The position numbers were made by a program, and so were the translations under genes. The notes below the pieces were generated by a model. It had not been told where the DNA came from, ran no database searches, and was given only the letters and a program-made list of their open reading frames with translations. Below, in pieces: positions 8,304-54,560 of a DNA stretch of 64,000 nt. Every line of letters begins with the position of its first letter. Position 1 is the first letter of the stretch. The DNA comes from Liolophura sinensis (lineage: Eukaryota; Mollusca; Polyplacophora; Chitonida; Chitonidae), in the NCBI RefSeq assembly GCF_032854445.1, contig NC_088302.1, forward strand, positions 26,377,080-26,441,079, in the 5' to 3' direction.

Positions 8304-11300
8304 GTAAGACAGAGTTTACTTTTAGTTGACGGTTTCCGTCATGTGTTTGACTGTCTGAGTGATAACAGAGACCATTGTGTAAATTATGAGTGTGAGCATT
8401 TCTCAGATGAATATGACTGAGATAAGCTGCTATGCCTCGGCTTGTTATTAGTTTCGTGTACACGTCTCAGTGAGGCGACATTTACAAGAGGTCAAGGACG
8501 AGTGAGGGTGATGAAGGTGTGCGCTGCTAGCTTTTTACTGATTGGTCAAAATCGTATTGTTGTACATCAAGACATCTATTGATTTGTTACCGTACCCTGT
8601 TATAATGTAGCTTATAGGGTACCTCTATGCGTCTATGTTTATATAGAAACATAAACTGTTAACGTATAACCCCATAGAGCTATCCTGGCCGTACATGGGA
8701 AGATCTGCAGTTACCTGTGGATGGTTGGGGGTTTCCCTTATGCCGGTCGCCGTCGTATAAGTTAAATATTCTTCAGTACGGCGTAAAACACCAATCAAAT
8801 AAATAAATAAATACAGCTACACTGTAGGATATATAATGCAATTTTAAATTTTGTCCTGAATTTTAAATCTTTCAGATGAATCTTATTGAATTTCTGCTAG
8901 TATTTTAGAATACCCCAAATAATAAACATTCGCAAAATGTCAGCCTTGCATGTCCATGAATTGTCATTTGAAATCGGTAATAAAGCTCCTTTTAAACTTC
9001 AGAATCTTTATAACACGATAAATACCGATAGTAAAGATACATGTACGAGTCTGATATTTACTGAAATGCAGTAATTGTGGTAAATACAGAAAATTCAATT
9101 CGATTAGACTTAAGTAAATATTGAATTTTGCCAAAAGTCTGGGGAATAGACCTTTCCGAACTGTCAATCAAGAACATCCAATAATGGAGTTTCGAGTTGG
9201 AACTCTTGGCAAAAACAGTTCTACTGTGTCATTTGACTTGTGAAAATAGTTAGGCAACTTTTGTTGACATTTATTTACTGATCACCTGTCTCCCCCTTTT
9301 CCAGAGGCACAAAGGGCACTTCTTTCTTTTAGGAACTTCTTAAGTTCATAAACATTCAGATTCTCAGTTTTCTCCATAATTCGTCTGCTCTAAATCACTT
9401 TTATGACACTTTTTTTTAGATCGACATGTTTTAGTGAAAATGATCAAAAGTAATTGCCTAACACTCTTGACAGGTCACATGATACAGTTGGACTTTCTAC
9501 CTTCATCGATAAAAGAGTTTGAACTCGGAACTCCCCTATTGACCAATCATAAGCAGTATTGTTGCAAATAGGTCAACTGGGTGTCCCAGACATTAGTTAC
9601 AAATGTTCAGTCTTTCTGACGTTGCGGTTGCTTTCACAGGAAATCAAATGAAATGCAACATTGTCACGAGAAGGGGTGGTGGGACATTGGCTGTGTTGGA
9701 TCCATCCATAGTCTCTAATGATAACATATATCAAGAGTTCATGGACATCAAAATGTTAACTACCCTCTCAGAAATACTGAGTTTTTTTCCAAGGTCGTTT
9801 TGAGTTTAACACCAAACATAAACGTAGCTCTCTTGGGGATTCTTTGATAACGTACATGTATAGGTTTAAAACAAGAATTTTCAGTTTTGATCTATTACAG
9901 CAGGTATTATGGTGTAGTGAAGTCTAAATTTGTCACCGTCATTATACCAGTCCATGACTGAATTAATTTAATTCACAAAAAAATAAACAGTTGACTGCCC
10001 AGTCTATAGCTTGACTTTACTATTCGTATGTCTATTACAATTATTTTACATGTACATTACACTTGACGGCTACATGTGTGTACACAGGTTGTCTGTAACT
10101 CGTTTACTAGTAGTGTACATGAATTATTAGGATGATCGGCATATAGCTGGTCATAATATATTCAGTTTTTCTTTAGCTTATAGCATACTTTTGAATTTTG
10201 TAAACTCCTTACTCAGTATTTTGAATACTGTTAAACAGTAGTTGAGGTTGACGTCTATAAACCCCTGTATGTGTATGTGTTGTTCCAGCATGATTATAGC
10301 TATTAGAGTTGTTTGAATCAATCATTTTCCAAGCCCATGAATTTATTAGCTGGACCCAAATGCTAAAAATATGAAAATACATATACTTGTGTATTTCAAT
10401 GGATTTTCAGCTGCAAGTGGTCCAACCATTACTGCACATTAAAGCGACAAAGGGCAGTTTACATAGACATGCATGTAAGACTCTGCTATCATCATGTATC
10501 ATGTTAGACTCTGCTATCATCATGTATCATGCTAAAACATGCAGGTACCTGTATATAGCACACTGATTCTCAGATAAATACTCACTTGGGTCATGTGGAT
10601 TTCCTTTGCAAATTCCTGTTTATGGTCACAACAATATCTTATAGGCCTATGCGACACAGAATAGTGTGTTCAAAATTTAAGGTTTACCATTTTCTTGTAT
10701 TGAATCCTACTTCTGTCCATCAGCTGATGGTTAAGGAACACACATATCACCAGAGTTTGCATTATTGTTGTTTCACCTAAACGTTTTCAGTACTATTATT
10801 AATGACTCTTTTGCTGACTGTTTTTATTGGCTATTCCTTTTGCATTCTTCGAAACTATATCACTCATGTGAAGATTTACAGCTGGCAAAGTCAACCCTTT
10901 ACACTCAGATTGTGCACAATTTTAATAACAATATGGTCTTGTTTGGCCTGTAAAATGGACAGACTGATGGCATTGTTATTAGTTTTGCAGTGATATCATA
11001 GTTACTCAGAGCCAATCATCAGCATACTCTTAAGTCACTTGACTAGAAAACTGGAGGTGAAAACAAAGCAAATTTAACCCAGGTGAAATAGGCACTGAAG
11101 AAGATTTTGGCATAAAAAATGAAAAATAGCTTTTCGGTAAGGAATTATTTCTGAAATGTTAATCGGGATGTACATGTATATCTAGCCTTAAGATAGAATA
11201 GTTTTAATGTCCTGTAGTACTCTAAACTTAACCATCGGCAATACTCAGCGTTTCACCCATTTAACTCCATGTCATTTATCACCTCCAGCTCCTCGCGAGA

Positions 11301-14300
11301 ACCCGGATGCTCTAAGGGTCAAGTGTTCATTTCCCAGCTCATCATAATCATGTCATAATAATAAAAACAGCACTATGCCACAATATGAACAGATACATGG
11401 TGACTCTATGAATGTCTGAAGGTTCTGCTTTGCACCTGTGCAGCCTCAGGGTTTTTCAAATTTTAATCTTCGTGTATGAAAGTTTATTTTAAAGTTTGTT
11501 GTTGGTTGTGAAGTAATTGTTCTGTACATTTACTTGTGCTTCATGTGTTTATTCAGGTGGTGACATCCATCTGCCCTACAAATAACAAACCCATTGCGCA
11601 AGTCACTCAGGTAAGCAATAGAAAACTCATCACACTTGTCATGTGCAGCTTCGTCTCTTGGCAAATGCAGTACTGTTAAAATGAGTATTGATGGGAGTAC
11701 CTAGAGTATTGACATTGATGATCATAGTGCCTAGAGTATTAATTGATGTTGATGATTATAGTGCCTAAAGTATTAAATGATGTTGATGATCTTAGTGCCT
11801 AGAGTATTAATTGACGTTGATGATAATAGTCTCTAGAGTATTAATTGACATTGATGATAATAGTGCCTAGAGTATAGACATGAATGATTGAACATATAGG
11901 TCTGCCAGCAACCTTCGGATGATCGTGGGTTTCCCCCGGGCTCTGCCCAGTTTCCACCCACCATAATGCTGGCTGCCGTTGTATAAGTGAAATATTCTTG
12001 AGTACGGCGTAAAACATCAATCAAATAAATAAATAAATAAATAGAACATATAGTCCTAGAAGTATCAATAGAACGAATGAATGAACAAAAAAACTTAAGA
12101 CGGCTTATTGGCATGTATCAATAGATATAATGATCATAATACTTGATATGCCGGAGTTGTGGCCTAGTCATTTGTCTACCTGTTGGTAAAACTCACAAAG
12201 TGTGGGATCAAACCAGATCTGGTTATGGAATTTTTTGAACTCGCCCCTGCTAACAACATTCATGGATTGTTGATGACCACCGGTCTTCCACAAATGGATG
12301 TATTGGGTGCATACGTGTTCAGGGACATGTATCTGTACATCACGTGGGAAAGTTCATCACTGACATGCCAAAGGTTCAACATGTCCAATCTGTACGTCAC
12401 ATGTGGGAAAGTTCATCACTAATATGCCAAAGGTTCAACATGTCCATTCTGTACATCACATGTGGGAAAGTTCATCACTGACATGCCAAAGGTTCAACAT
12501 GTCCATTCTGTATGTCACATGTGGGAAAGTTCATCACTAATATGCCAAAGGTTCAACATGTACAGTCTGTACGTCATATGTGGGAAAGTTCATCACTAAT
12601 ATGCCAAAGGTTCAACATGTACAGTCTGTACGTCATATGTGGGAAAGTTCATCACTAATATGCCAAAGGTTCAACATGTCCATTCTGTACATCACATGTG
12701 GGAAAGTTCATCACTGACATGCCAAAGGTTCAACATGTCCATTCTGTATGTCACATGTGGGAAAGTTCATCACTAATATGCCAAAGGTTCAACATGTCCA
12801 GTCTGTACGTCACATGTGGGAAAGTTCATCACTAATATGCCAAAGGTTCAACATGTACAGTCTGTACGTCACATGTGGGAAAGTTCATCACTAATATGCC
12901 AAAGGTTCAACATGTACAGTCTGTACGTCACATGTGGGAAAGTTCATCACTAATATGTCAAAGGTTCAACATGTCCATTCTGTACATCACGTGGGAAAGT
13001 TCATCACTAATATGCCAAAGGTTCAACATGTACAGTCTGTACGTCACATGTGGGAAAGTTCATCACTAATATGCCAAAGGTTCAACATGTCCAAACTGAA
13101 CATCACATGTGGGAAAGTTCATCACTAATATGTCCAATGGTTTACTCCAGGCACTCCCTATCCTTCACTCATTTAAATGGACCACCATTGATATGTAAAT
13201 GTAAAATTACTTATTATGATATTAAATGAATGAATTAATGTTTAACGTGGCTTAAAGTTACATTAACAATATTTCAGCGAAATCATGATGAAGTATGGCG
13301 TTGAATTAGTCATGTAAGTAAATAGCAGCTGGTTAGGTGCAGTAGTTTCCTGGTTTTGTCTGTGTTCCACCACAGTCCACCCATAAACCTAACTACCATC
13401 AGAAAAAAGAAATATTCCTGACAAGGTTTGGAAAATCGCATTGAATCAGGTGATAAATAAATCAATGATCATATGTGTACTGTGAGTATGAATAGTTCAG
13501 TTTAAGTCTGCTGTTAACACCAATTTTATGCTGGGTGTCATATCATATGCATAATTTTCTGTTTTATTACTTTACCATTAAATCAGATTTCTGTTTTCAG
13601 GGAAGTCCTGCAGATTATGAGAAAGCAATCACAGCCAGCAAGCAAGCTTGGGAGGTCTGGTCGGATGTATGTACATGTCATTGTGCTCTTAATACCCCTG
13701 ATACATCAGTCAACCAATAGACACGTGTCACAGTTTACAGTACACATACATGTATAATCTTGTCAAGTGTAATATGATAGTAATTTCGCCAGAGAAAATG
13801 ACTAGGGTGAATTGAACTATGCAGTTGGTCAGTAATGTCGTATTGGCTATGTGCAACAGATTGATTGTAGGCTATGTTGATTGTGGTTACCACGAAAACA
13901 TATGACTTTGTGACAAGGATATTATGTTGCCGTTGTAGTGACAAAAAACTAATACACGTACAACAATCACTTTGTGGAATATTTATTTATTTGTTTGATT
14001 GGTGTTTTACGCCATACTCAAGAATATTTCACTTATACGACGGCGGCCAGCATTATGGTGGGTGGAAACCGGGCACAGCCCGGGGGAAACCCATGACCAT
14101 CCGCAGGTTGCTGACAGACCTTCCCACTTACAGCCGGAGATGAAGCCAGCATGAGCTGGATTTGAACTCATAGCGACAGCGTTGGTGAGAGGCTCCTGGG
14201 TCATTACGCTGCGCTTGCGCGCTAACCGACTGAACCACGGAGGCCCCCTTTGTGGAATAAAACCTCGGAATGAATGGTTATAGCTAAGTGCAACATTGGC

Positions 14301-17300
14301 AATATTTCAGCCACTTTTCGTATACAGCATCTTGTCATTTGATCTGTTAGACATACATGTGTGCATGCAGCTGATGACTGTTTGCTCACTATCACACTGT
14401 CGTCGAAACTCTGGTTTTAGTGTCCATGTTGGCGTCTTTTGTGTTCTAGGAGACCAGCAATAACCAGAAAGATTCCTGACAGATGGAATATAGAATTTGA
14501 TATATACACAAACGGTGTGCATTTATATTTTATGGTATTAATGTAACATGTTACATTGATTTATATTTGCCATATCCTGATAGTGTAATGTGTAAATGCC
14601 CTGAACTGACCTGTGGCACTTAAGTGATCTTTGATCAAACTTATTTGCAGGTGCCAGCTCCAAAGAGGGGAGAAATTGTTCGTCAGATTGGTCATGCTCT
14701 CAGAGAGAAGCGCCTCCTTCTGGGAAAACTGGTTTGTCTGGTTTAGTTATAGATGTCGTGCTTGTATTTATTTGTTTATTTGATTGGTTTTTGTATGCCG
14801 TACTCAAGAGTATTTCATTTATATGACGGAGGCCAGTATTATTGTGGGAGGAAACCAGGAGGTTGCTGGTAGACCTTCCCACATATGACTGGTAGACCTT
14901 ACCACATGTGACTAGTAGACCTTTCCGCATGTGACTGGTAGACCTTCCCACATATGACTGGTAGACCTTCCCACATATGACTAGTAGACCTTTCCGCATG
15001 TGACTGGTAGACCTTCCCACATGTCACTGGTAGACTTTCCCACATGTCACTGGTAGACCTTCCAACATATGACTGGTAGACCTTCTAACACATGACTGGT
15101 AGACCTTCTCACACATGACTGGTAGACCTTCCCACATGTGACTGGTAGACCTTCCCACATGTGACTGGTAGACCTTCCCACATGTCACTGGTAGACCTTC
15201 CCACATATGACTGGTAGACCTTCCCACATGTCACTGGTGGACCTTCTCGCATGTGACTGGTAGACTTTCCGCATGTGACTGGTAGACCTTCTCGCACATG
15301 ACTGGTAGACCTTCTCACACATGACTGGTAGACCTTCCCACATGTGACTTGTAGACCTTCCCACATGTGACTGGTAGACCTTCCCACATATGACTGGTAG
15401 ACCTTCGCACATGTCACTGGTGGACTTTCCCGCATATGACTGGTAGACTTTCCGCATGTGACTGGTAGACCTTCCTGCATGTGACTGGTAGACCATCCTG
15501 CATATGACTGGTAGACCTTCCCACATGTCACTGGTAGACCTTCCCACATGTCACTGGTAGACCTTACCACATGTGACTGGTAGACCTTCCCACATGTGAC
15601 TTGTAGACCTTCCCACATATGACTGGTAGACCTTCCTGCATATAAGTGGTAGACCTTCCCACATATGACTGGTAGACCTGTGATTGGTAGACCTTCCCAC
15701 ATATGACTGGTAGACCTTCCCACATGTGACTGGAGAGAAAGCCAGCATGAGCTGGACTTAAAACTCACAGAAGTCACATTGATGAGGGGCTCCTGAGTCA
15801 TTGCGTTACGTTGGCACACCATCCACTTGCCCATGAAGGCATCTTGTACTTTTTGCAGGGCTAGAGTGTCACAGCTCAAGATGCCAATTCAAACCTGACA
15901 TTGGAGAGAATTTGTGGATTCCATGGCAATCATTGTAGCCCTTGGCAACAATAATTAGTTGGTGATGCTGATGTGGCCATATTTGCTTGAATATCACTGA
16001 GCAAGTTTGTATGTCCCACCTGAGAAAGTTTTTCAGGATGTTGCCAAGCAACTTGATCAGACCACTGAGCACGTTTGTATGTCAAATCTGAGAAAGTTTG
16101 TCAGGATGTTGCCAAGCAACTTGATCAGATCACTGAGCATGTTTGTATGTCCCACCTGAGAAAGTTTGTCAGGATGTTGCCAAGCAACTTGATCAGACCA
16201 ATGAGCATGTTTGTATGTCACACCTGAGAAAGTTTGTCACAATCTTGCCAAGCAACTTGATCAGACCACTGAGCATGTTTGTATGTTACACCTGAGAAAG
16301 TTTGTCACTATCTTGCCAAGCAACTTGATCAGACCACCGAGCACGTTTGTATGTCACACCTGAGAAAGTTTGTCATTATGTTGCTAGGCAACTTGATCAG
16401 TAGTTTACACAGAGAATTCTGGCTTTCTCTACCCAAAAGTGAAAAATTCTTGAGTATGACGTTAAAGATCAATAAAGTAAATGGACAAGTTGAATGTGGC
16501 AATGTACATTTGTTCTGTTAAGACAGACAATTATCCATTTTTATGGTCAGTTGAGAGGGCACAAACTGTTGGTCTGAATAACACATCTACATCTTAATGT
16601 AATTTGGTGTTCAGTAGGTGTTTGAAAAAGCTACATGTAAATCTAAATTTTTGTTGTAGGGCAGATTGATATTCGAAAGGTCATTTGTTGATTATAAGGC
16701 TTGGTTTATAAGGTTTTATAGCATATATGTAGATCATTATGGAAATGGACGGAGATGAATATTTGGAGGTGAAAATGGCCTGTATTGTAAACAGTTACAA
16801 GTATGCATGTGGTTGATTCTATGCTAGATGTAAGGTTGAGCATGTAAGGCGATATAGTGCTTCCTTCTATTTGTGCATTTCTAAGTGCTTACTGTACATG
16901 ATTTCAGGAATCTCTGGAGATGGGGAAAATTTTACCTGAAGGGGAAGGGGAGGTGCAGGAGTTCATTGATGTGGCAGACTTTGCTGTGGGTCTCTCCAGG
17001 ATGTTTGCAGGACATGTGTTCCCATCAGAGCGTAAGCACATCTCAGCATTAATGGAACTTTTAGGCTTCTCCACTGAACAGATGTGTTTATATGTGTTGA
17101 AACTTAAACATTTTCTGTAGAACCAAAAGAATAGTTTCTGTACATTAAGTGGTGAACATGACATGTATATGTACATTTCACCTAACTGTTCGCCAAGCCA
17201 AGTTTTTGTATTTTTGTAAAGTTTGTAGTCAGGTTAACATTTTCATTTTTAACATGACTGTGGTTGAGCCCAGTTTATTTTCAGCACTCAGTCGGCAGTG

Positions 17301-20300
17301 GTATTTTCTATTTAATATGTATTGATTTGGGTGCTTTGAAGGGTCACTAAGCTTTCCATTGATGGTTACCTTGCACCTTCTGAGTCGTATTAGGTCCAGG
17401 CAGTGTCTTATTTCGTGTAGACTAATGCTCTAATTCCAGGCCATATCTTACTCTAATGTTTTTGGTTCAGGCCATGTCTTACTCTAATGCTTTAGGCTTA
17501 AGTCATGTCTCACTCTAATGTTTCAGGTCTAGTCCATGTCTTACTCCAGTGTTTTAGGTCCAGGCCATGTTTTACTCTAATGTTTCAGGTCTAGTCCATG
17601 TCTTACTCCAGTGTTTTAGGTCCAGGCCATGTTTTACTCTAATGTTATAGATCCAGGCAGTGTCTTACTAGATTAATGTGTAAGGTCCAGTTCATGTCTT
17701 ACTCCAATGTTTTAGGTCCAGGCAGTGTCTTACTAGATCTATGTGTAAGGTCCAGTCCATGTCTTACTCTAATGTTTTAGTTCCAGTATATGTCTTACTC
17801 TAATGTTTTATGTCCAGGCCATGTCTTACTCTAACGTTTTAGGTCCAGGCCATGTCTTACTCTAATGTTTAGGTCCAGGCCATGTCTTACTCTAATGTTT
17901 TAGGTCCAGGCAATGTCTTACTCTAATGTTTTAGGTCCAGGAAGTGTCTTACTAGATTTATGTGTAAGGTCAATCCATGTCTTACTCTAATGTTTTAGTT
18001 CCAGTATATGTCTTACTCTAATGTTTTATGTCCAGGCCATGTCTTACTCTAATGTTTTAGGTCCAGGCCATGTTTTACTCTAATGTTTTAGGTCCAGGCC
18101 ATGTCTCAGTGTAATGTTTTAGGTCCAGCCCATGTCTTACTCTAATGTTTTAGGTCCAGTCCATGTCTTACTCTAATGTTTTATATCCAGGCCATGTCTC
18201 ACTCTAATGTTTCAGGTCTAGTCCATGTCTTACTCCAATGTTTTAGGTCCAGGCCATGTTTTACTCTAATGTTATAGATCCAGGCAGTGTCTTACTAGAT
18301 TTATGTGTAAGGTCCAGTCCATGTCTCACTCTAATGTTTTAGTTCCAGTATATGTCTTACTCTAATGTTTTAGGTCCAGGTCATGTCTTACTCCGATGTT
18401 TTAGGTCCAGGCCATGTCTTACTCCAATGTTTTAGGTCCAGTCCATGTCTTACTCCAATGCTTTAGTTCCAGTATATGTCTCACTCTAATGTTTTATGTC
18501 CAGCCCATGTCTTACTCTAATGTTTTAGGTCCAGTCCATGTCTTACTCTAATGTTTTAGGTCCAGGCCATGTCTTACTCTAATGTTTTAGGTCCAGCCCA
18601 TGTCTAATGCTAATGTTTTAGGCTTAGGTCATGTCTCACTGTAATGTTTTAGGTCCAGTCCATGTCTCACTCTAATGTTTTAGGTTCAGGCCATGTCTCA
18701 CTCTAATGCTTTAGGCTTAGGTCATGTCTCACTCTAATGTTTTAGGTCCAGGCAATGTCTTACCCTAATGTTTTAGGTTCAGGCCATGTCTCACTCTAAT
18801 GCTTTAGGCTTAGGTCATGTCTCACTCTAATGTTTTAGGTCCAGGCAATGTCTTACCCTAATGTTTTAGGTTCAGGCCATGTCTTACTCTAATGCTTTAG
18901 GCTTAGGTCATGTCTCACTCTAATGTTTTAGGTCCAGGCAATGTCTTACCCTAATGTTTTTGGTTCAGGCAATGTCTTACTCCAATGTTTTAGGTTCAGG
19001 CCATGTCTCACTCTAATGTTTTAGGCTTAGGTCATGTCTCACTCTAATGTTTTAGGTCCAGGCCATGGCTCACTCTGTTTTAGGTCCACGCCATGTCTTT
19101 CTGTAATATTTTAGGTCCTGACCATGTTTTATGCCAATGTTTTAGATCCAGATCCAGGCCATGTCCTACTCTAATGTTTTAGGTCCAGGTCATGTTCTGA
19201 TGGAAATGTGGAACCCCTTAGGCGTTGTGGGAGTCATCACTGCCTTTAACTTCCCAGTGGCTGTGTATGGTTGGAACACCAGTCTGGCTCTTGTCACTGG
19301 CAATGTTGTTTTATGGTAAGACAATTCTCATTTTGCCAGGACCCCCCATTATGATTATGATTCTTTCTGCTGCCTTGTTTGGCATTCAGCACTGAAAGGT
19401 TAGAGATAGGAAACCAGACTTTTGGCCCAGTGTCAGTATCAGTTGACTCGGGTGTCATGTCTGGTGTCTTCAGCTTTATGCTTGAGTTGTGACAACATTT
19501 AGGGGGCATGGATTCACCCTGCCACAAGAAGACATGGAATACACAAGTTTACACATCCAATGACTCCACGTTGTCATATGACGGAAAAACCGTTAAAGGA
19601 AACGACCTTTAAAAATCAAAGTAAGCATCACTTAATAGATCACTTAAAACTATGCCTAAATATACTTTTTTTTAGATTTTTGTGAAGACAATTAAAGGCA
19701 TTCAAACGTTTTGGTGGGTTTCATGGACCATACTATCAGAGTTTAGGAACTCTGACGTCACAGGTAATGTTTCCAACTCTAGTCACAACACTGACTGTTG
19801 TAATAACTCTTTTTACATATGAGTAAAACACTGAAATAATGTTCTCAAAATTCCTTCCTTCGGATGAACACGAGGAAAAAAAGGGTGATGTGATCTCAGA
19901 GTTCCTAGATACCGTCAATATGGATCATACATCCTACCTTAGTATTCATATATTTGAATGCCTTTCAACACTCTTTAAAGAAGTCTAGAGAAATAAATAA
20001 AAGTATTTTTGGGCATAGTTTTCAGTTGTCTATGTGATGAACCTTACTTCATATTTCAACTTTCTTTTACTTTGTGACATAAAAACCCAGGCATACATGT
20101 ACATACATATGGATTAGAGGCAAGACATGTATTAAAATAAATCACTATTAAGGCGCATGTTGACTTCACAACTTGAAGTTTATTCTGAACTAATTATTCA
20201 CTGATGCCTTCACTGAAGTCTGTTGAAACCTTTGGTTTAAATAGCCTGTTGTAACTCAGTCAAGTTAAACAGTTTGATTGGCAGCGAGTCCATTATAACT

Positions 20301-23300
20301 ACTCACAAGAGAAAACTAACATTATACAAAATTCAAATTTTAAAATATAAGATCTCCACAATACATTTTTACAAACATCAGTAACAGTCATTAAAAATCA
20401 AGAGTTATATGTACTTGTATACTAGTATCAGAAATTATGTTTTGAATTCTATTCTATTAGAAGCTGTTAAAAGTAGAGCTGATCAGTCATGAACCAAGTC
20501 TCATGCAAGCCAATGTTATATGTATATATAATGTTTTTTCACTCGTGCTAGTGCAAGATCATCTTCATTCCTCAAAAAGATACAAGAGGAAATAGTTTCC
20601 ATCAAGCTCAAGGTTTCCATTAAGCTCATGGTTTCCATAAGATCATGGTTTTCATGCTGTCAGATAAACATCTATATGTCTGTGCTTGTTTGTTCAGGAA
20701 AGGAGCCCCTACAACTCCACTGACCAGTATTGCTGTTACAAAGTAAGTGTTTAACTGCCATTTTTCTTTTCATCGAGGTCAGTATTTTTTTTTGGCAAGG
20801 TCAGCAATTTCTGTTATCAAGGTCAGTATTTTTTCGTCAAGGTCAGTCTTTTTTTTTTCATCAAGGTCAGTATTTTTTTTCATCAAGGTCAGTATTTTTT
20901 GTTTCGTGGTTTGTGTTTGACTTAATAAGAAGTTGTATCCTACTTTAAAGATGATTATTCTTGAGTATTTATTTATTTATTTGATTGATGCTTTACGCCG
21001 TACTTAAGAATATTTCACTTATATGACGGCGGCCAGCATTATGGTGTGAGGAATCCAGGCAGAGCCCGGGGGAAACCCACGACCATCTGCAGGTTGCTGA
21101 CGGACCTTCCCATTTATGGCAGGAGTATTCTTGAGTAAGGCGTAAAACACCAATCAAATAAATAGATAAATAAAGATGGAACTTAAATCATGGGGTCATT
21201 TTACGTACAATCGTATTTGGCAATGGAGGTCAGGAGATTTGTCGAGTATCCGGCAAGGGGCCATGGATTTGTTCCAAGCATTCATATTTTCTTCATCCTT
21301 AAAGCCAACGGTCGTCATGTACTCTGTAAAGATAGTAACTGCTTTGAAATTGCATGAAATTTAAAAAAGTGTGAACAAACGTTCTATAGGTACATTCCTC
21401 ATTAAGCCATTAATATGAAGCTGACAACATCATACGCAGTGGCAGAAAAAAAGCATGTTTTGCAAGAAGGGCATGGACTGAGTGGGACTTCCGCCATGTG
21501 GGGAATATTTATGGTCTCCTGTTACTGTGACCTGTCATTTGACGCATGCTGTTGAAGACATACAAAATTCAGTTTCAAGGACAGTGCCAGGTCACCTGGA
21601 CACTAATTGAAAGATGTGATATGAACAATAATTTCTTTTTTTTTTTTTATTAAAAATTAGTTTCTATTTGCCCTGGAGCAGAAAAAAAATTACAGTAGAT
21701 GCATGTAAATGTAAGAAAATAAAATATGCAGTTTCTTTGTTGAATTAACACGTAAAAAGGAATGTTTGAGTACTGTATGAACATGTCCTTCTTTTAAACA
21801 CTTGTGTTCAGCTGTGCGTGTTCATGCCGTTACGGTGTATACCTGCCCTTCAGCTACACATCTGTTGACAAGCTACCTGCATCTGCATTGGGTTTAAACA
21901 TCATACCCAAAATTTCTGGCTAACGGATTAACAGTGATTGAGGCTATAGCTGCTTGGGGCAGTTATGTGTAGGATTCAGGCTCTCTGCTCTCTGTCCATT
22001 ACCTACATGTATGTCCTTGTAGGTGTGGAGAGGTGTGTTGTATGTGTATTACACTATTTGCTGTGTAGATGTACCTTCCATGTTATACAATCACAAAGGC
22101 AACTGATGGATCTTCCTAGTGACGGTGTAAAATCTTTATTGACACCATGAGTAGATTTAAAATAATGTCATTATTGTATTTGTTGTACCCTGTTTATTCT
22201 AAAATTCGTGACACCTGGACAACGGATCATTTTAGCCAATATATATGTAATTCTAGCAAGAATATTGAGTTCCTTTTTTTCTCACATGGTTAAACCATGG
22301 GATGAACAACATACTCATATCTTTACTTTTCCAAAAGGCTGGAAAAGAAACGTAGTATTCTACTTTCAACACTAGTAATATTTGTCCCACATTTTACAAA
22401 AATTAGAGTATGAAAGTAAAGGCTGCACAAAAAATACCTTTCCCATAGATGCTTGGGGAAAAACTAAACCATGTTGGCCTTTACAGTTACAGTACATGTA
22501 TTTCAGATACTTGCAATGTATGTGTTAATGTGTGTGTGTGTGTGTGTATATATATGTATTCTGATGTGCAGAAAAAAACATAGGAAACTTTCCTGAATTT
22601 CTACATCATTGTATTCCAACTGCAGTTTTGAACTTTCGTTCTCAGTAGTATCCCAGTGCAAACATTGTATGCAAGACCTACTTATAGCTGCAAATGCTGC
22701 TCTTTTCAGAATTGTCTCTTCTGTGATGGAAGCTAACGACATGCCTAGGGCTACCTGCTCGCTGGTGTGTGGAGGGGCTGATATAGGGTAAGTTGTCAGC
22801 TTGTCATTTTCATATAAACGTGAAAAAAGTGGGAAGCCTTACTCCTTTACTTCATGACAGACCTGTGTTTGTGTGCCACCTGTAACTTCTTTGTTCAAAG
22901 CAAGTGTTCTTTCTAAACGGCTGTAATTTAACAAAGTGTTCTCACTCAATGAATTTAATACAAATGTTAGATATTTAATAGAATTTTTCATGTATATGCC
23001 TTATTCAAAATGTCAGGAAGTTTACATGTAGAAATCAAGAAGTATTTTTTCCCACCTGTATCTTAGATCAGAATTCCTTATTATTTAATATTTCTGTATA
23101 TTTATGTATTTATTTGATTGGTGTTTTATTCAGTACTCGAGAACATTTCACTTATATGTCTGGCAACCCGTACTGTGGTGAGAAGAAATAGGCAGAGCCT
23201 CATGACCATCTGCAGGTTGCTGGCAGATCTTCTCATGTACGACCGGAGAGGAAACCAGCATGAACTCACAGAGGCCGCATCAGTGAGAGGCTACTGGGTC

Positions 23301-26300
23301 ATTGCATGGCTCAGGCTAGCTAACCACCTCGGTCACAGAGGCCTCTTTAACGCCATTGCAGATGTTCATTATGATCTTATTTTGTTGAAATAACTTTGAT
23401 GATATATTTTCATGCTTTTTTATCTCAGGAATCTGATGGCCAATGACACTCGAGTGGACTTATTGTCCTTCACAGGAAGTACTGCAGTAAGCTGACCCGT
23501 TTGTCTTCTCATAGTAAAACCTTACTTCGTTCTGACTCCTGACAAGTGCACCAGTGTTATTCAGGAATTATCTCTCTGACGTAATCCATATCGTGATAAT
23601 GTGTACATGTTTATGAGTAATTACATATCCATATCATTCAACCGAAAAAGGCACACGCCAGATTATTACTTGTTGTGCCAGTCGCACGTGGAAAGGTCTG
23701 CTAGCAACCTCTAGATGGTCATGGGTTTCCACGGGTAGAGCCAGCCTCCTCGGTTTCGTGCTAACATAACGATCGTCACTGTCATACATGTATAGGGGAC
23801 ATATCCATAAAGCCCTCGTGAAATAAATAAATAAGGAAATATTTGTTATGGTTTACTCGCTCAAATAGAGAACCTCCATCCATAAACGTGACATCTGTGG
23901 TGTGAGTGGACGGGAAAATTTTTAACTATGGCATAAAACCACCAACACCAATCCAACACGTGTGTAGATATGTGCATGTACATTTACCTACAATGCCTCT
24001 ATGACATCAATCACTCACTCATCAATCGAACAAAAACATATTACGTAATACCTATATGATGTGACACTAGTGAAAATTAGAGTTTTTTTTCTTTCAAATG
24101 TCATATAAGATGTGGGAGCTGTGTGACTTAGAGCATCCTAATAATCTATGTTGTTAGGTTGGTCACAAGGTCTCCTTAGCAGTTCAGGACCGGTTTGGTA
24201 AGTGAATTTATATGCAGTGTAAACGAGTGTAACAAATCACCAACATGACATAAAACAGCAGTGAGATATTAAAGTAAAATAAATACTTGCATCCTCCATT
24301 ATTGTAGTTCTTTCTGGGCATAATGTGAACTACATGTGTTCAGTTGCTCAATTTCATCTTGCTGCCTGCATATGTATATCTATGTTTTTTGTTTTTGTTT
24401 CTTCAGGCAAGTTTTTACTTGAATTGGGTGGAAATAATGCCATAATAGGTAAGTGTATTTTGTGTTTTTTTTCAGCAGATTTTAAATATGTTTTTTCTTT
24501 TTTTGATAGCTGGTAGGTTAGATCTGAAATGTGGTAAATGACCTAAAGTTTTGCAAATGACTTACTGTTGTTTACATTCTCACGATCTGTTGAAATGTGG
24601 AGACTGTTATCTTTGACTCTGGCTGTGTGCTAAGGTGAACTACTACATCACGTTGTAGATGGTTGGTACATTGTAAATGGGAAGAAATCCTCCTAAGGCT
24701 GAACTGAAAGGTTTAAACTTAAGTTATTAAACAGTAAAGAAATACAAAAATGGTGCATTGTTCTGTGTTTTTATTATGTTTGAAAACAAAAATGTTAATA
24801 GTGTTAATTATTTTTTGCAGTGAATGATGATGCAGATCTTGACATGGTGGTTCAGTCAGCAGTATTTGCTTGTGCAGGAACTGCTGGTCAGCGATGTACC
24901 ACCACACGTAGACTGGTAAGTCACAGGTCATCTGTTATCCAGATATAGACATGGTGATTCAGTCAGCAATGTACCACGACACGTAGACTGGTAAGTCACA
25001 GGTCATCTGTTATCCAGATATAGACATGGTGATTCAGTCAGCAACGTACCACGACACGTAGACTGGTAAGTCACAGGTCATCTGTTATCCAGATATAGAC
25101 ATGGTGATTCAGTCAGCGATGTACCACGACACGTAGACTGGTAAGTCACAGGTCATCTGTTATCCAGGTATAGACATGGTGTTTAAGTCAGCGATGTACC
25201 ACCACATGTAGACGGGCAAGTCACAGGTCATCTGTTATCCAGATATAGACATGGTGATTCAGTCAGCGATGTACCACGACACGTAAACTGGTAAGTCACA
25301 GGTCATCTGTTATCCAGGTATAGACATGGTGTTTAAGTCAGCGATGTACCACGACATGTAGACTGGTAAGTCACAGGTCATCTGCTATACCCAGATCTAG
25401 ACATGCTGGCTCAGTCAACAGTGCAGCACGACACGTAGACTGGTAAGTCACAGGTGATCAGCTGTACCCAGATCTAGACATGCTGGTTCAGTCAACAGTG
25501 CAGCACCACACTTAGACTGGTAAGTCACAGGTCATATGCTGTACCCAGATCCAGACATGCTGGTTCAGTCAACAGTGCAGCACCACACTTATACTGGTAA
25601 GTCACAGGTCATCTACTCTACCCAGATTTAGACATGCTGGTTCAGTCAACAGTGCAGCACCACACTTAGACTGGTAAGTCACAGGTAATCTGTTATACCC
25701 AGATCTAGACATGCTGGTCAAGTCAACAGTGCAGCACCACAGTAAGACTGGTAAGTCACAGGTCATCTGTTATACCCAGATCTAGACATGCTGGTTCAGT
25801 CAACAGTGCAGCACCACACTTAAACTGGTAAGTCACAGGTCATCTGTTATACCCAGATCTAGACATGCTGGTTCATTCAACAGTGCAGCACCACACTAAG
25901 ACTGGTAAGTCACAGGTTATCTGTTATACCCAGATCTAGACATGCTGGTTCATTCAACAGTGCAGCATCACACTTAGACTGGTAAGTCACAGGCGATCTG
26001 CTACTCAGGTTGTCCGTTTTCCTCCCACCGTCGTATAAATGAAATATCCACGCATAAACCTGTAAGTCACAGGTCATCTGTCACCGAGATATAGACATGC
26101 TGGCTCACTCAGCGGTGTACTACAAACCGTGGACTGGTAGGTCACAGGTCATCTTATACTGTGTGTATTGATGGTGGATTAAGTCAACCCAGTGAGAACT
26201 TCACAATCTTATCTTAATGGCTTTGCATCTTTGCATCTTTGTAAAGTTTACCTTACATATTTCAGATCCTGCATGAAAAGGTACATGATGAAGTTCTGGC

Positions 26301-28759
26301 GAGGCTGAAGAAGGCATACAAGAAAATCCGCATTGGTGATCCACTGGAAGGTTTGAACATTACACTTGTACATGTTTGAAGATACAAATGGGCATTGGCA
26401 CTGTCTTAACCCTCTCTATATTGGGAATGGCTTATTATACAAAGCAATATTCTTGATGCAGCAAGTCAACTTGTGACCAATGAGGTTGCCAGCAGACTCA
26501 AATCCAGTTCTTAAGTATGGCACGATCACCTTGAGCCGTGCCCCTCTGTAAACGCTATCTTGGACTAAAGGGTACACCTGAGTTCTCATGGTGTAGGTAA
26601 TGCAACTTCAACCAGTTCATGGCCACATATTCTCCATTTTCAGTGTTGGTTTCAGTCTTGAAAATTCAAATTTGAAACAATTTTTATGTAAATAACTTTT
26701 AATCTGGGTAAAATTTTTTCAGACATCATGAACTTACTTTAAGGACTTATTGTGTCTACTTAATACAGTTTGAATACTCATGTATTTGGTTTTCAGAGGG
26801 CACATTGTATGGACCGATGCACAGTAAACAAGGAGTGGAACTTTACAAGAAGGCAGTAGCCGATGCCAAGGCCCAGGGAGGGACAGTGGAATATGGGGGA
26901 CAGGTAGGAAGGGTTATAATAAGCCTGATGAGACTCTCAGCTGTTGGTTTTGAAGGGAAAGAAAGAAGTAAGCATCAGTAGAAAGACCATTAAAATCTGT
27001 GAAGGTAAAATACCATTACTTACATATTTTAAGGATATGTTTTCACCTAAATACAATCAAGTTTTTGGATTGTTATGCACCATATTAGCAATGTAGGCTG
27101 CCAATAATGCACTTCAACTTTTTTCCGCTCTGTTGTTAAGAGGTCTGAATCAAATTCTTGCGAAGTTTACTTGTGTAATGTGTATTTGCATGGGAAGAAG
27201 AGATTTTCACATTAAATGTCCCTGTTAGGGCCAGCGAAAAGTTCTTTTAACATTACAGGCAACATTAGTTATCATGGAAGCGCCCATTGTTTCTGATACA
27301 GCGTAGTGTTGACAAAACCTGTGATAGCCAGTACTCACTATATACATGTAGGAAGTTCTTACTCTGAGTTACCATATTGAATGACTGAATACAAAAACAT
27401 ATGCAGTGTACATGTATAATAAGGGTGGCCTATATGCATATGCAGCTGAATGTCCACTCATTTAAGTCCACTATCAGTGACTCTGCACAAGTCTTCAGTA
27501 GAATTAGTAGACATACATGTAGTCATGCTCGCCTGTATCCTGTGCACTGGATGGACACAGCTGTCCAGTCATCCACACAAATCTTGCACTGATCATTCCG
27601 AATTGAGTTGTCTCCCTTGAAGCCATCTGGCCAGGCAGATTAATACTCGCCTGTAAGTACTGTCCTTGTGTAAAAAAGACCTCGGCCAAGTGAGGCTAGC
27701 CAACATTCACTGCATCATGAGTGATGTAACAAGAAAGAAGTACATGCATCCTGAATGAAATCCTTGCTTCAAGTTCTCAAATGTTTACTTAGTCATGTGA
27801 ATTTGTTAATGTGTGTTGTATTAATAGAAATCTGTTTTTCAGTTTAAAGGTAAAATTCTGGCAGTCTTGTAAAATTCCTGGGATCCCAGCCCTCCTACAT
27901 TGCTTGTAATTTTCTACATTTATATGCATGTATAATCCCATTATTATCATGCAGACTGAGCAGTACACTGACCTGATAACAAGTTTGTTGCACAGTTTTG
28001 TCTTTGTGTCTTCCACTTTTCTGATAATTTGCACATGTGATATACACTAAATGAGCATAAATTTCGTCCATGACTAATTTGTCCATTTTTCCTGATTCTG
28101 AGAGTTCTGTTGATTTGAGAAAGGTGTTTTGAGGTTTGCTTGGAACATGGGATGATATTATACTGGAAAGTTTTAGGTTTCAGCTAAAAAAAAATGACAT
28201 GTGTTTGCCTCTAAAAATGCATATTTGTGTACGAAATTTGAGGTCATTTAGGGTATGCTTATATCAGTCTTTGTCTTTGTGTCTTTGACATTTCTGATGA
28301 TTTGCTCATGTGATATATGCTTATATCACAGTCTTTGTGTCTTTGACATTTCTGATGATTTGCACATGTGATATATGCTTACATGCTTATAACACAGTTT
28401 TGTCTTTATGTCTCAAACAGGTGATAGATGGCCCTGGCAACTTTGTGGAGCCCACAATAGTCTCTGGATTAAAGCATGATGCAGAAATTGTTCACCGTGA
28501 AACATTTGCCCCTATTGTTTATGTTCTCAAGTGTAAGGTAAGTGAAGCAGTTTTATTTGTACATGTGCATGCATAGAGTCATTCCAATCCGAGAAGAGTG
28601 ATGTGAATAAATGACTTCTTCACATGATATGTTTTACATATATATATATATTTTTTTTTTTTGATTGGTGTTTTACGCCGTACTCAAGAATATTTCACTT
28701 ATACCACGGCGGTCATTATGGTGAGTGGAAACCGGGCAGAGCATTTATATATATATAAA

Positions 28760-28829
<70 letters not shown>

Positions 28830-31800
28830 TATCTATACACACATGTGTACATGTATCTAGATATACCATTCGCCTATAACCTTGGTTCTGTTGATTGGAA
28901 ATGACCTGCCATTTAACGTAGAAGCCACAAAAACTGTGTATTTCTGTTGTAGTGTGTCTTAGCATCCATGTTCACAGTTATGCTTCGATGGCTGTAAATA
29001 CTGTCGTCCCTGTCCAATCAATGGTGATCATGAGTGATAGCATGAAACTGACCAATCGGTGCAGACGATGTGGTTTGTTTTACATCGTCTGTGGCTTACA
29101 GAATTAACCATTTTTTTGCCTTTCTAACTTGTTTCTAAATAACAAATATCGGCGTCACTGCAAAATTCATTAGGGATGCCAAAAGTTTATGGGAAGATGG
29201 CATCTCACCGGACAGCGTTTAAAATTAATTAAATCTGATGGTATAATTTTTTTTTTCTGTGAATGTGTTACAACTCAAGATATTAAATGTTGATCATTTG
29301 TCTTTCCCACATACAGTGTTTTTTTTTTCTGTTTTCTTTTCTAAAATACAGTAAAATTATTGAAACACCGTGTTCAAACCAAGGTGCTTTCTCTGACATC
29401 TGCAATGACTGGGTCCACACTACTTTCATCTTTGAAGCCGCCACTACAAAACTGAAACATAAAATCCAGCGTCAGTTGAATGCATAAGTCAACCTCAATG
29501 GTGCTTAGATTTATTTCCATTTGTTTCAAAAATGAGAATGAATCTAGATGGACATCAATCCTATTTTAATTTTGTAAACATTTAATAGGGTCAGAATCCC
29601 CCCAGAGGCTACAACCTGAACCAGGAATACCGTGGGGGTGCAACTGCAGCTAGGCTATTTAAACAGGGTTGCTGAAGTTCCTTGTAAATGATATAGTAGG
29701 CCAGCTGTATCAAGAATTCAAGCTGTGGAAGAAATATTCTTCCAGTATGTTCCGCTTCGGGACCGGTAGATCCAGGATCAATCTTTGATTGAGTCACGCC
29801 TAAGACTTTAAAAGAGGAAGTTGTAACTTCCTCGCTTGGCATTCAGCACAAAGGGGATAGTGCAACGACTGGTTGACCCGTATCAGTATAATGGCTTGGG
29901 CGGGGTGGCTTACTTGCTTTCGGTAAGTCATCTCAGTGAAGCAGCACTAGATAAAAGAGCGGTGGAAATCCATCCTGCTACAAGGAGGCACATTACATGT
30001 ACATGCACCCTAAGGATTCCTTCGTCGTCATATGACTAAAAAATTGTTGAGTACGACGTTAAACCCCAAGCACTCACTCACTCACTCCATTATGTTCATT
30101 TTCTGAGAAAATTATATTTATCAGTCGCCACCGAAGTCTGCAACTTTTATCTGCCAAAGTCTGCTTTAACTGTTACAATGTTTCCTTTGTTCTAGAGCTT
30201 TGAAGAGGGAATACAGTATAACAATGAGGTGAAGCAAGGTTTGAGCAGCAGTCTCTTCACCAGAGACCTCAGCCAAGTCTTCAGATGGTTGGGGTAAGTT
30301 TTCCTCTTGTCTGGTCTTCCAGTAACATAACCCAGTACTTCATACTGCACTGGTCTGTCTGCCGCACATCATGTTCATCGTGTTTCTAACTACTAAATTG
30401 CTAATGGTTACTTTGTGCACTTTATATGAACTCTAGACAACCAAGGCGTCAACAGAAATATGTAACATAAATCTGCACGATCGACAAAAAGCATTCTTGA
30501 TAATCCAAAATGACATTTTTAGGTGTATACATGTATTTAGATAAACCATTCAGCTAATAATTCCTGAAGGCACGTATTTTATATATTTACTCTAGCTTGA
30601 TCTGATTGTTGTTTTACAAAAATATTGTCAGCAGAAACCGAGCTGAAGTATTGATGAACATAATATGCAATCCTAACAAAACTTGTTACATGTGATTTGG
30701 ATCTTGAATATGCTGCATGTTGTATAGATCTGCACATGTTGTTGTAGTCACAAAGGCTCGGACTGCGGAGTTGTTAACGTAAACATCCCAACCAGCGGTG
30801 CTGAAATTGGGGGAGCGTTTGGTAAGTTTGTTTATACTCTCCTGCGATCTGGTAAGTTTGTTTATACTCTCCTGCGATCTGGTAAGTTTGTTTATACTCT
30901 CCTGCGATCTGGTAAGTTTGTTTATACTCTCCTGCGATCTGGTAAGTTTGTTTATACTCTCCTGCGATCTGGTAATTTTGTTTATACTCTCCTGCGATCT
31001 AGTAATTTTGTTTATACTCTCCTGTGATCTGGATTAAAACCATTATTCCAAGAAAACCTTGATGTTATTTCACGGAAGGATACTGCATTATTATTGTACA
31101 TGTACCTCATGTTTCTCTTCCCAACACTAGAATAAAAACACCTAACATGGGATTTGGCAGTTCATGATGTCTGATGTTGCACCCATTGACATTGTTTCAG
31201 TATGAAAAATCATGCAATAATCACATATATATTTGGTCATGACATGAGTTGTCCCCCCTTGTTTTTTTCTTGTCAAGTGCGTCGTCTTTCTCAGTATGTC
31301 TGTTCAGTCAGGTATATAAAGCATAAAGGATATCGGCATGTTGCCACATCAGTGAACTATGTATCAATCAGCATAATAAAACCAGTATTGCACGTTGCAG
31401 GGGAAAAATGGAGTACGCTGGCTCTTGACAGTTGGCATGCCTGATAACTGGAGCTGTACATCAACAATGTCAAGTTGATTCACCATGTTGTCTTGGACGT
31501 GTTATTTCTCTTTTAATTCTATTTAATTTTGTCCATTGGCTTTTATATCGTAGATTTATTTGATTCTTGGTACTTGTGCGTAGCTTGTGCCTGGACAGGT
31601 ATTAAATCAGTGATCATGATCATACAGTACCAGTTCAAACGTAACCAACCAGCAGTTAGTCAACCAAACAGTAATTCACAGTCAGTATAGTATACATGTA
31701 TATCTGAAGATTGTAATACATTCTATAAATGCAAATTTTGTCTACATGTATATACTGTTTGGCAAGGTTAATTTAGTTGAGTTTTTCTCTTGGTGACCAG

Positions 31801-49076: not shown

Positions 49077-49411
49077 TCAGGCCTTTACAGCGTGTAGTGG
49101 AATGACAAACTTGTGGCCAAATGGGGACATGTACTTGATGCCCAGGTCAGTGAAGACCTTCTTTGGTAGACTGAGATCAGACAGGTAGACCTGCCCACAG
49201 GACGGAGGCAGATTGAGGGGCAAGCCCAGTCCCAGGCTCCACTTACTCTGAAAGGCTGTGCCGTCAGGGGGAGGGTCGATGGCCAGCACTGGCACCCTCA
49301 TGCTTGGTACCCAGTCAGCCAGAAGTCTGTACCAGGCCTCTTCCTTCACACCAGGGTTATCCTGGCCATCTATGGCTGTGATAATCATATCAACTGTACC
49401 GTTGGGTAAAT
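49077..49411 (-). CDS. EDC3: EDC3 exon 6, C-terminus (335 nt)
   Basis: Acceptor TTCCTTTTCAG. Encodes LPNGTVDMIITAIDGQDNPG, RVPVLAIDPPPDG, QSKWSLGLGLPLNLPPSCGQ, YMSPFGHKFVIPLHAVKA, then TGA. Human ends SPFGCKFVIPLHSA. Confidence 0.96.
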
Positions 49412-52400
49412 CTGAAAAGGAACACATCAATAAATGTGGGACTCCCTGGATTGAAGTATGCACAGCTGAAACATACACATGCACATGTGTTCTGTAGTGT
49501 TCATAGACAAAGTGAGAATAATGACTACATGGAAAATGCCCTCAAGATACATTTACAGTAAGCAATATGACATTTACATGTATGTTGTGACAGTCCTCAT
49601 ACTTCATTTGTACATTACAATACATGTTGAATTCATGTAGCTAATTTCAATTCTTAGCATGTAACGCATATTATACTTAAATGTACATGTATTAAGTATA
49701 TATATATTTAGCTGCTCTCCTGTATACACACATTTGTCAATGGCAGTTTTGCCCTTGATGAACTTTGAGTTTTATGATCATAGATTAAATAATAGGTTTA
49801 TTGTCGTATTTATTAGGTTTTATTGATGCGTCGAAACTGGTGTCTTGCTAGCTGTTTGTTGTCCTGCAATGTGCACACAAGCTATCCAGGCTGAATGGCC
49901 CAGTTACATGTATCACCTGATCACCTTATATCATTTTCTCTTTCTAAAAGATAAGAGAAGGAAGTAAAAGTATCGAAGAAGACCCCAAATGATCACAAAA
50001 CCCATGTCAAGGCATATCGAAGTAATGACATCTGAATGAAGTTGAGCAGCACATTTTACTTGTACATAAAGTGAAAGGTCCTGGTGCAAACTTTCTTCAA
50101 CCTATATATGTATCTCAATCGTATAGATCTAAATTTATAATTTGCCAGTCTGACCGCAGACGGCTTCATACTGTAACATAAGAGTCAGCATGTACCAAGG
50201 TCGTCACTCACCAAAAATCACAACCAAACACAAGTTAACAAATAAATAACATACAGTTGAATACATGCATGATTTGGTTTCCTCTTTAACACACTGCATA
50301 GACATCCGTATATACATGTAGATAATTTACCCTTAATATCAGAGGTTTTCTTGTTGCCTGTGAGTTCATACAGACGGAGTTCCTGCTCCAAGGCTGTATT
50401 ATGCTCACTAGGTTGGCCTGGGACAAATACAGTGGTATGGACATTGTGGTTGGCCAACTGTCTAGCACAGTTCACTCCCTGGGCACCTTGGCCATGGCAA
50501 CCACACAGAACCACAACCACAGGGCGCTGGTGGTTGTTTTGAGGTGACATTCTGCCGACAGAAACATCATTGCATGTACTATGGAACTGTGATCAGACAC
50601 TAGCACCTATCCTTTTATGAGAATTTTTTTTTAGTGCTAGTGCAGCACTACCTGCAGGAGGTAAAGGAAGACTGGTTTACATCACAGGAATAATGGCTGA
50701 ACAGAGAAATCCATTTATCATCAACAAACCAGGCACAAATTAAGCAAATTAAAAGACACTGCTTTCATAATTAAACAAGCTTTTAATTATTACATTACAT
50801 TACATGTAAAAGATTCTAACACGCCCCTTATCTATAGCACTGCAGATAGTTGTACACGGATATGAGCAAGAGGTACCTGTGACATCCACCTAGCAATTGT
50901 AGGACCATTTCACTGGCTGACCGCCCCACCATCTCCAATAACCGTGGTTCATTCAAACCTGCCAGTTCAGCTGCAGACAGCAACTGTTTGCGCATGCTGT
51001 GAGATATACTAGGAACCCTCAACCCTGAATCTACAATCATAAAGCAAAATTATGCACCAATAATATCTTATTTATTTATTTCATTGGTGTTTTATGCCGT
51101 ACTCAAGATTATTTAACTTATACGACAGTGACCAGCATAATGGTGTGTTGAAACCGGGCACAGCCCAGTGGAAACCCATGACCATCTGCACGTTGCACGT
51201 CCGGGGAGGAAGCCAGCAGGAGCTGGACTTGAATGCACAGCAACTGGATTGGTCACCAGTAATACATGGCATGTACAGAATGAGTTGAAGTGCTACATGT
51301 TGATATGTGAAGACAAAATACACATTTTTTCTTCTTGAGGAAGACACATACTGTGTTTGACCTAAGGCATAGCTCTTTTCAAGTGACAAATTTTGCTTGA
51401 CTCTGAAGTACAGGACAATGCATCACTGATCAGAGAGTCAGACCTTGTGCGGCACATCAGACATGTCAGAGAAAGTGCCCCTTAGCCACATCTGATCAAG
51501 GCTTCTTTTGAAAATGCTCATATGGTATTGTTTCTAGGGTTTTTACATGACTAACTCATTACCAGGAACACAAGAATGTACTATGGTGATCTTTTCACAG
51601 CATGTTTTGGTAGTTATTTCTGCACTGTTAGTAACACTTCCAAAAACAAGAATTGGCATTCAGTGCCAATAAGCCTTTACACCACAACACAGGTCAAATG
51701 ACACACTTGTAACTCAGCACTTTACCTGTAACATAGCACTTTGCATCTGAGCTTGGAACCTTTATCTGTGAAAGAACCACTGGTTCTGACTGCAGCACAT
51801 TTTCGTCACACCTGTACTTGGCTGGTCTTTTTTCTCCATTACCAGCAAAGATCACAGTGCCGTTTCCTGAACTCTCAATTTCCTCAAATACTGCTTTCTT
51901 ATCAAACAAGGCCAAATTCTTTTCAAAGTCAAAATCATCCAGGTAGGATTCAGTTGGAGCACTAAAACAATCCTCCTTTGGGGTCGACCTCTTCTTGAAG
52001 TCTATTTTTCTTGGGGTGCTTGATTTCTTCTTCACTTCAGAAGCTACATGTATAAAAAAGATAAAGAACACATGTATAAACATTTATAAACATTTAAATG
52101 AACATGGTACAACTGTGCACAATAAGCATGACACATGGCTCTAATTGGCTCATTCAACCTACAAGATTTATAGCTGATCAGTTCCTGACCAATACGGTTA
52201 AACCCAGCTCTCTTGTTCAAGTGCGGCTCTATGTCAGGACGTATGTTAAGTGCCAATGAGTGAATGATGGGCTTTGGTTTTATTACTCTTGGCATTCAGT
52301 TATCTTCCTTCATTAATCTGACTGTTGCGGTTTAAGAAAGAAAATCTTGAGTCAACTGTTACACGTCATTCAAATATATCAATGTATGATTCAATAGATT

Positions 52401-53298: not shown

Positions 53299-54560
53299 CT
53301 CTGTACATCAAAACAATTTACCTCTTTAGTTTACACCTTATAAACAGATATCACAGGTAACTTTTATCCATAAATATGCATTTCACATGATCAAAAGACA
53401 TGACAGCATTTCTTCAAAATTCTCAACTTACACGTATTAGCCTTTTTGTATAAAACTCCAACAGTATTAACTTCTGTCATGTCTGGGCTGATCATCACAA
53501 TTTGCTAGGCTGGCAGCCTGAAATACTTGTAACAATAACTGTAATGTGTGTGATTCTCAGTTTGTAATATCATGTACATGTACATGATGTAAGAGGCCAG
53601 CTTGAGTTCATATCGGTAGTGATAATTCCTTTAATCAATGAAGGATGATAAAGTACAAACAAAAATATTCAATTATGACAGTACACGTAGGTACCTCAAA
53701 AAAAAAAAAAAAAAGAACCATGCTGTAGCCATTATCAACCACCTTGCAGACTTAAGAAACTTTATTTCACACAAAAAACAAGGAAAGCCAATTAATCGAA
53801 TATGTATGTGCTGACCTACAAGATGAGATACTGTGAGATATTGTAATCATTAGAGCCATTACTGTTTTCCACCAGTTTTTCACTTCCCCTCTTCAACGCA
53901 TGATTCTTCCAAAGATCAAGCCCAACATATTCTAGACATGATCTCTATTAGAGCAGCTGTTCAAAATGGATTCGAAAAACTAAGAGCCAATCCAGCTCTG
54001 ATATTTGATTCAAAGTTCTAAATTCACTCTGAAATTCCACATCTTCATACCGGCATGTTTCAATCTTGTTTACCATCCACAGAGAATACACATTTGGACT
54101 ACATTTTGGAAGCACTAAGTCTTATTTGCACAGCCACTTTGGTTGTGTTCACACGGCAAGTCAAACACTGGCTGCCAGAAGTGAGATGAAGAACAATCCT
54201 GATTAAAGATCTGTTGCTTAGATTTTGGATTTGAGTGTACCTAAATCCAATTCACTGGAGAAAATCAGCTTGCCGTCTTAAAACACCTGCGCTCCTTTAA
54301 ACCAAATGCATCTGTTGAACACATGGTGTCGACTTTGCTGTGGACCTGCCACAGCAGCGGGCAGTGCTTGAGGACCTAAAATCCAACTCAGCAATCGGCT
54401 ATTCTCAATCAAGCTCGCATCCAAAGTAAAAAGCTTTCAGCCATTTAGAAACAGAGAGGTACAAGTATATGAAATCAAAGATTAGAAATTATGCAGATGA
54501 AACAATCCCTAAAAGCAGCACCAGAACAGAAGGCCATGAGTCCAGAGAACAGAGCTTGGA
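53299..54560. other. EDC3 upstream region / 5' intron (inferred)
   Basis: No coding signal. Includes an A16-type run near 53698-53715 and otherwise AT-rich DNA. Confidence 0.45.

Follow-up and report, generated by a model that had tools for sequence, protein, structure and literature searches.

The window analysed here, a 64,000-nt stretch of the Liolophura sinensis genome, holds the whole of ALDH7A1 (antiquitin), which is complete with 19 exons and an intact frame. The predicted protein matched the antiquitin chain 2jg7_A over query residues 32–538. We found that the exon 6 acceptor most likely lies before 19183 and not before 19189, because the 19189 version misses two residues of 2jg7_A, seen as an alignment gap; with exon 6 starting at 19183 (TTTTAG, six bases upstream of 19189) both are regained in SER-PGH. 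Introns 4 and 13 carry the unusual donors GTTTGT (14732) and GTTTGA (26351). Ten tandem arrays were found within the gene when overlapping TRF rows were merged and one TA run was excluded, and three of the ten touch a splice junction, in introns with a good match to the acceptor or donor consensus. Another array, at 20760, begins 18 nt past the exon 7 donor and was left uncounted as a near miss. The features are as follows.

8109 to 32955, plus strand: gene for ALDH7A1 (antiquitin) in 19 exons, its 540-codon frame open when exon 6 is taken from 19183
14866 to 15733, no strand assigned: comparison array in intron 4 of ALDH7A1, off the junctions, 23-nt unit, inside a dispersed segment that we take by eye to be SINE-like
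17395 to 19196, plus strand: array 1, at the acceptor of intron 5, 31-nt unit, about 57 copies
24841 to 26157, plus strand: array 2, at the intron 12 donor, about 77 nt per unit, with its end near 26157 placed by eye in worn copies
30820 to 31034, plus strand: array 3, at the donor of intron 17, 30-nt unit reading TG, exon end, GTAAGTTTG..., seven copies

Elsewhere in the window the SINE-like sequence recurs, for example near 14000 and 21000, and its letters gave no match in open-licence papers. A dispersed repeat at 28038–28264 has at least 40 or so further places in the genome at 75–85% identity, and coding score picked out the exons of a likely gene on the minus strand (49199–53300), presumably EDC3-like from its N-terminal sequence.

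The three junction arrays were then compared in structure. In array 1 (TRF, 17435–19195, 31 nt, 56.4 copies) the unit comprises a pyrimidine stretch, AG and 14 nt from the start of exon 6; the array reaches 14 nt into that exon, 11 of them identical to the best-matching copy, and its last copy bears the frame-keeping acceptor of exon 6 from 19183. The unit of array 2 (TRF, 24900–26008, 77 nt, 14.6 copies) is made of two exon 12 blocks joined by a 32-nt deletion, with the donor and the opening bases of intron 12 behind them; exon 12 itself (24821–24915) counts as the first copy. This array repeats the last 29 nt of the exon, with 26 identical, together with a second block of 20 nt from 24841, with 19 identical, and the deletion lies between a GTCAGC hexamer at 24855 and another at 24887. 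Array 3 (TRF, 30820–31032, 30 nt, 7.1 copies, 97% matches) abuts the donor of exon 17 (30748–30821) and shares just 2 nt with it; its copies have a mean column identity of 98%, and for that reason it looks young. The splice dinucleotide is intact in 50 of 57, 15 of 16 and 7 of 7 copies of arrays 1, 2 and 3, respectively. Each array borders one end of its intron (5, 12 or 17), the opposite end being ordinary sequence. When the units were compared no relation was seen, indicating separate origins. The sequence-only reading had described three independent arrays seeded on splice junctions of this gene. TRF bore out the arrays, with corrected boundaries, and their independence stood; seeding on junction sequence appears clear for two of the three, arrays 1 and 2, in which exon sequence forms part of the unit, and array 3 merely abuts its donor.

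We wanted to see how common such arrays are in other genes. The source genome (609 Mb), in which eight haemocyanin beta-sandwich domains occur in a row, a molluscan type of gene, was sampled by Pfam family and not by random choice, the families being aldehyde dehydrogenases, chaperonins and myosin heads. Eighteen stretches of CCT, HSP60 and ALDH genes and eight stretches making up four myosin gene regions gave 22 further gene stretches with 330 junctions and 165 introns; L003 and L004 are parts of the same gene, and L015, with one exon, contributes no junction. Exons were called with a small Viterbi gene finder, its codon use trained on the source genome, and curated by hand, so some array-free exon boundaries are approximate. 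Arrays were called by TRF, and junction cases were judged by eye from the sequence, unblinded. CCT gamma and CCT epsilon are identified by PDB matches that cross the joints without inserts; the other names given here are putative assignments from Pfam families.

With ALDH7A1 excluded, 11 junction arrays were found at the 330 junctions (3.3%), or in 11 of the 165 introns, about one in fifteen. Nine sit at donors, in CCT epsilon (L002), CCT zeta-like (L006), CCT gamma (L007, two), the ALDH genes L011 and L017, and myosins M1 (one) and M3 (two), and two at acceptors, in CCT gamma (L007) and myosin M2. In 10 of these arrays the unit has 9–115 nt in common with the exon, and in the remaining one, at the L007 acceptor, 1 nt. 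One myosin array, at 13749–14401 of the joined loci L038 and L039 (contig C3), has a 124-nt unit in about five copies at 98%, which repeats 115 nt of exon with the donor, so that nearly the whole exon stands in tandem. The L017 array has two copies only, the second donor already lost, and is an early stage. Near misses were left out of the count: arrays 13 nt past a donor in L007, about 33 nt past a donor in L014, and 32 and 17 nt past donors in myosin M4, and arrays that stop about 50 nt short of an acceptor in L008 and lie 27 nt ahead of one in M2. Also excluded was an array in L012, presumably an ALDH9A1-like gene, where a 79-nt unit in three copies (gene-strand 9058–9294, contig C11) starts on the final codons and the stop codon and extends into the 3′ UTR.

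A second sample, independent of gene choice, was taken from the donor motif. The first 100 of 411 CAGGTAAGT pairs in the genome, all on contig C1, correspond to 15 arrays, of which six begin where a likely coding exon ends (L022, L024, L026, L027, L029 and L033), with an exon share of 9–31 nt. The L022 exon is similar to a HEAT repeat in a Mot1-like helicase chain, its coding score of 7.7 being barely above the 95th percentile of antisense controls (7.3); L026 resembles a family-31 glucosidase and L033 an EGF domain. L027 gave no Pfam or PDB match and by its look we take it to be deoxyribose-phosphate aldolase, and L024 and L029, which had no Pfam match, are likely exons by coding score alone. 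As for the other nine, the upstream sequence was too short in L019, L025 and L031, a likely exon lies nearby but off the array in L021, and five showed no exon in the fetched stretch.

What use of a wrong site would do was read from the copies. All 28 upstream acceptor copies with exact TTTTAG followed by GT in array 1, and all 13 later GGTAAGT donor copies in array 2, would lead to a premature stop, suggesting that such transcripts would probably be destroyed. The five later GGTAA donors of array 3 would each lengthen the reading frame by a multiple of 10 codons, with no shift and no stop, within a stretch strongly conserved with 2jg7_A. For ALDH7A1, CCT gamma and CCT epsilon, the exon-proximal sites gave proteins whose alignments cross the joints free of inserts. 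In nine pooled arrays, three motif-selected arrays being excluded, the splice dinucleotide was intact in 124 of 146 copies against 120.0 expected. Splice dinucleotides in the copies are thus neither purged nor kept, being preserved overall to roughly the same degree as other columns; GT was kept in 14 of 25 copies of the CCT zeta-like array, below the expected 19.4.

The trio had been thought too unlikely for chance placement, and tests on ALDH7A1 alone gave mixed results. When each array was treated as a single intron insertion point, a null that ignores array length, finding at least three of the ten within 6, 10 and 20 bp of a junction had P values of 0.0003, 0.0012 and 0.0075, which favours the seeding claim. 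The simpler gene-only nulls point both ways. Array edges lay near a junction in two (≤6 bp), two (≤10 bp) and four (≤20 bp) cases (P=0.050, 0.114 and 0.018), and the ten arrays placed at random gave a mean of 3.8 junction overlaps against 3 seen. With random founder units, 0.72 junction hits were expected and 3 seen (P=0.037, uncorrected and post hoc), or 2 seen without array 3 (P=0.163).

The wider sample was compared with a founder model, in which units of the observed sizes were dropped at random on array-collapsed gene sequence. This replaced a test by repeat coverage because coverage counts expansion, not founding. Local direct repeat lies over 20.9% of intron positions across the 18 loci, and in ALDH7A1 the share is 26.6%. 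In the abandoned test direct repeat lay over 7 of 283 junctions in the 18 loci, two of the seven in a false L013 exon that reads as SINE sequence and was dropped; a founder estimate with unmerged arrays and uncollapsed length gave 5.01 expected for 248 junctions. The model predicted 6.42 (TRF score ≥80) or 7.08 (≥50) junction arrays at the 330 junctions, against 11 seen (P=0.062 or 0.104). Including ALDH7A1, 14 were seen against 7.14–7.80 expected (P=0.015–0.029), and dropping cases with less than 5 nt of exon left 10 in the sample against 6.42–7.08 (P=0.116–0.178). The donor to acceptor ratio was 9:2 in the sample (P=0.065) and 11:3 with ALDH7A1 (P=0.057). If each of a gene's 36 junctions carried an array at the sampled rate of 3.3%, three or more junction arrays would occur in it with P=0.12. 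With 11 like cases at 330 junctions and 6.4–7.1 expected, the claim that the trio is too improbable for chance is not supported, and random founding with tolerance by splicing suffices for it. A modest excess over random and the donor lean (11 of 14) remain beside it, and random founding alone predicts no donor lean.

Our preferred reading, to which we give a probability of roughly 0.78, is that the arrays are minisatellites of the type called mirages in amphioxus, arising from random tandem duplication at joints and tolerated by splicing. A short segment would have been duplicated in tandem at a random place, and three times this would have included or touched an exon–intron joint of ALDH7A1; slippage or unequal exchange would then have multiplied the copies into the intron. 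Splicing would pick the exon-proximal copy (first donor, last acceptor), the other copies would leave with the intron, and wrong-site transcripts would decay. ALDH7A1 would stay usable because the exon-proximal copy keeps the frame and the rest would be spliced out. Tolerance by splicing had been offered earlier as one cause, and it agrees with the frame kept by the exon-proximal sites and with a rate near the random-founder expectation.

The other cause offered earlier was a splice- or transcription-linked mechanism. Under it, something at 5′ splice sites, such as R-loops or transcription-time breaks, would promote tandem duplication, and junctions, chiefly donors, would found more arrays. 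The mild excess of the 14 arrays, their 11:3 lean to donors and the 411 CAGGTAAGT pairs against 226 for the reversed motif speak for it, and yet the excess is not significant without ALDH7A1, and GGTAAGT triples, at 1773, go the opposite way and fall below the 2536 of the reversed control; in both genome counts a long array is counted many times over. The donor lean may instead reflect selection, spare upstream acceptors being perhaps worse than spare downstream donors. Furthermore, founders also fell on a stop codon (L012) and in a SINE-like segment (14866–15733), indicating placement anywhere, and a splice-linked process predicts neither. Such a mechanism is not needed, as random founders suffice, and we regard it as unlikely. 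Equally doubtful is its stronger form, in which splice donors are true hot spots of array founding, about 1.5–2 fold over random, that leave thousands of duplicated splice sites as a source of in-frame repeats, new exons and new introns.

That the arrays are retained for the benefit of having spare splice sites, whether as tunable decoys or to supply in-frame variants, would fit the in-frame, stop-free donors of array 3. However, these would insert into a strongly conserved stretch, wrong sites in arrays 1 and 2 would lead to premature stops in every copy considered, and splice dinucleotides are overall no better preserved than other columns, making this explanation very improbable. Less probable still, and hardly credible to us, is that the arrays are older than the introns. 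PMC4974935, with a model in PMC3087553, describes how tandem duplication over an intron–exon boundary can yield an intron, and in that respect the present arrays are alike. The duplicated segments of such a gain would stand at both intron ends, whereas introns 5, 12 and 17 are bordered at one end with the other ordinary; the copies of array 3 are 98% identical; and where the described duplication made a new intron, no new intron or exon was seen here.

A human minisatellite, in what we take to be gene 6-16/IFI6, also repeats a splice donor, and array 3 would likewise be in frame. Several donors are reportedly used in the human case, as claimed by the title of the study, whereas those of array 3 are known here from sequence alone.

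The closest parallel is in amphioxus. The passages of PMC3087553 and PMC3902484 on mirages describe minisatellite-like tandem duplications that span an exon–intron boundary at either intron end, with splice signals in many copies, in Adh3, the globins BflGb6 and BflGb9, TnC and PGBD5, the last added by PMC3902484, which cites Adh and TnC. A class of this kind had thus been described, contrary to the sequence-only reading. The units of array 1 (14 exon nt) and array 2 (29+20 exon nt) likewise span the boundary, array 3 is a borderline mirage because only 2 nt of exon are shared, and copies of all three carry splice signals. Unit sizes are 150–160 bp in the amphioxus globins and 10–72 bp in Adh3, as given in those passages, and 30–124 nt here. 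Splicing of the amphioxus genes was, according to the same passages, checked by RT-PCR, whereas the mollusc arrays were read from the genomic DNA of one assembly. Mirages are further characterised by undisturbed regular splicing and by array lengths that vary among individuals; in the present gene the exon-proximal sites keep the frame. Unlike mirages, described so far from cephalochordates, the present arrays lie in a mollusc, where many unrelated genes carry them, a difference of lineage and not of structure. Among molluscs, PMC6905558, a paper on abalone, describes an ordinary 27-bp intron minisatellite; no molluscan mirage-like case was recognised in the open-licence literature, and earlier molluscan reports may exist. 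As far as our literature search goes, mirages outside lancelets and their rate are new here.

Collectively, these data suggest that mirages are seemingly no lancelet peculiarity. If the sampled rate, from genes chosen by family, is typical, the genome would contain thousands of junction arrays. Two questions would then be open to test: by what means the spliceosome selects one site among many that are nearly identical, and with what frequency new exons and introns arise from tandem duplication.
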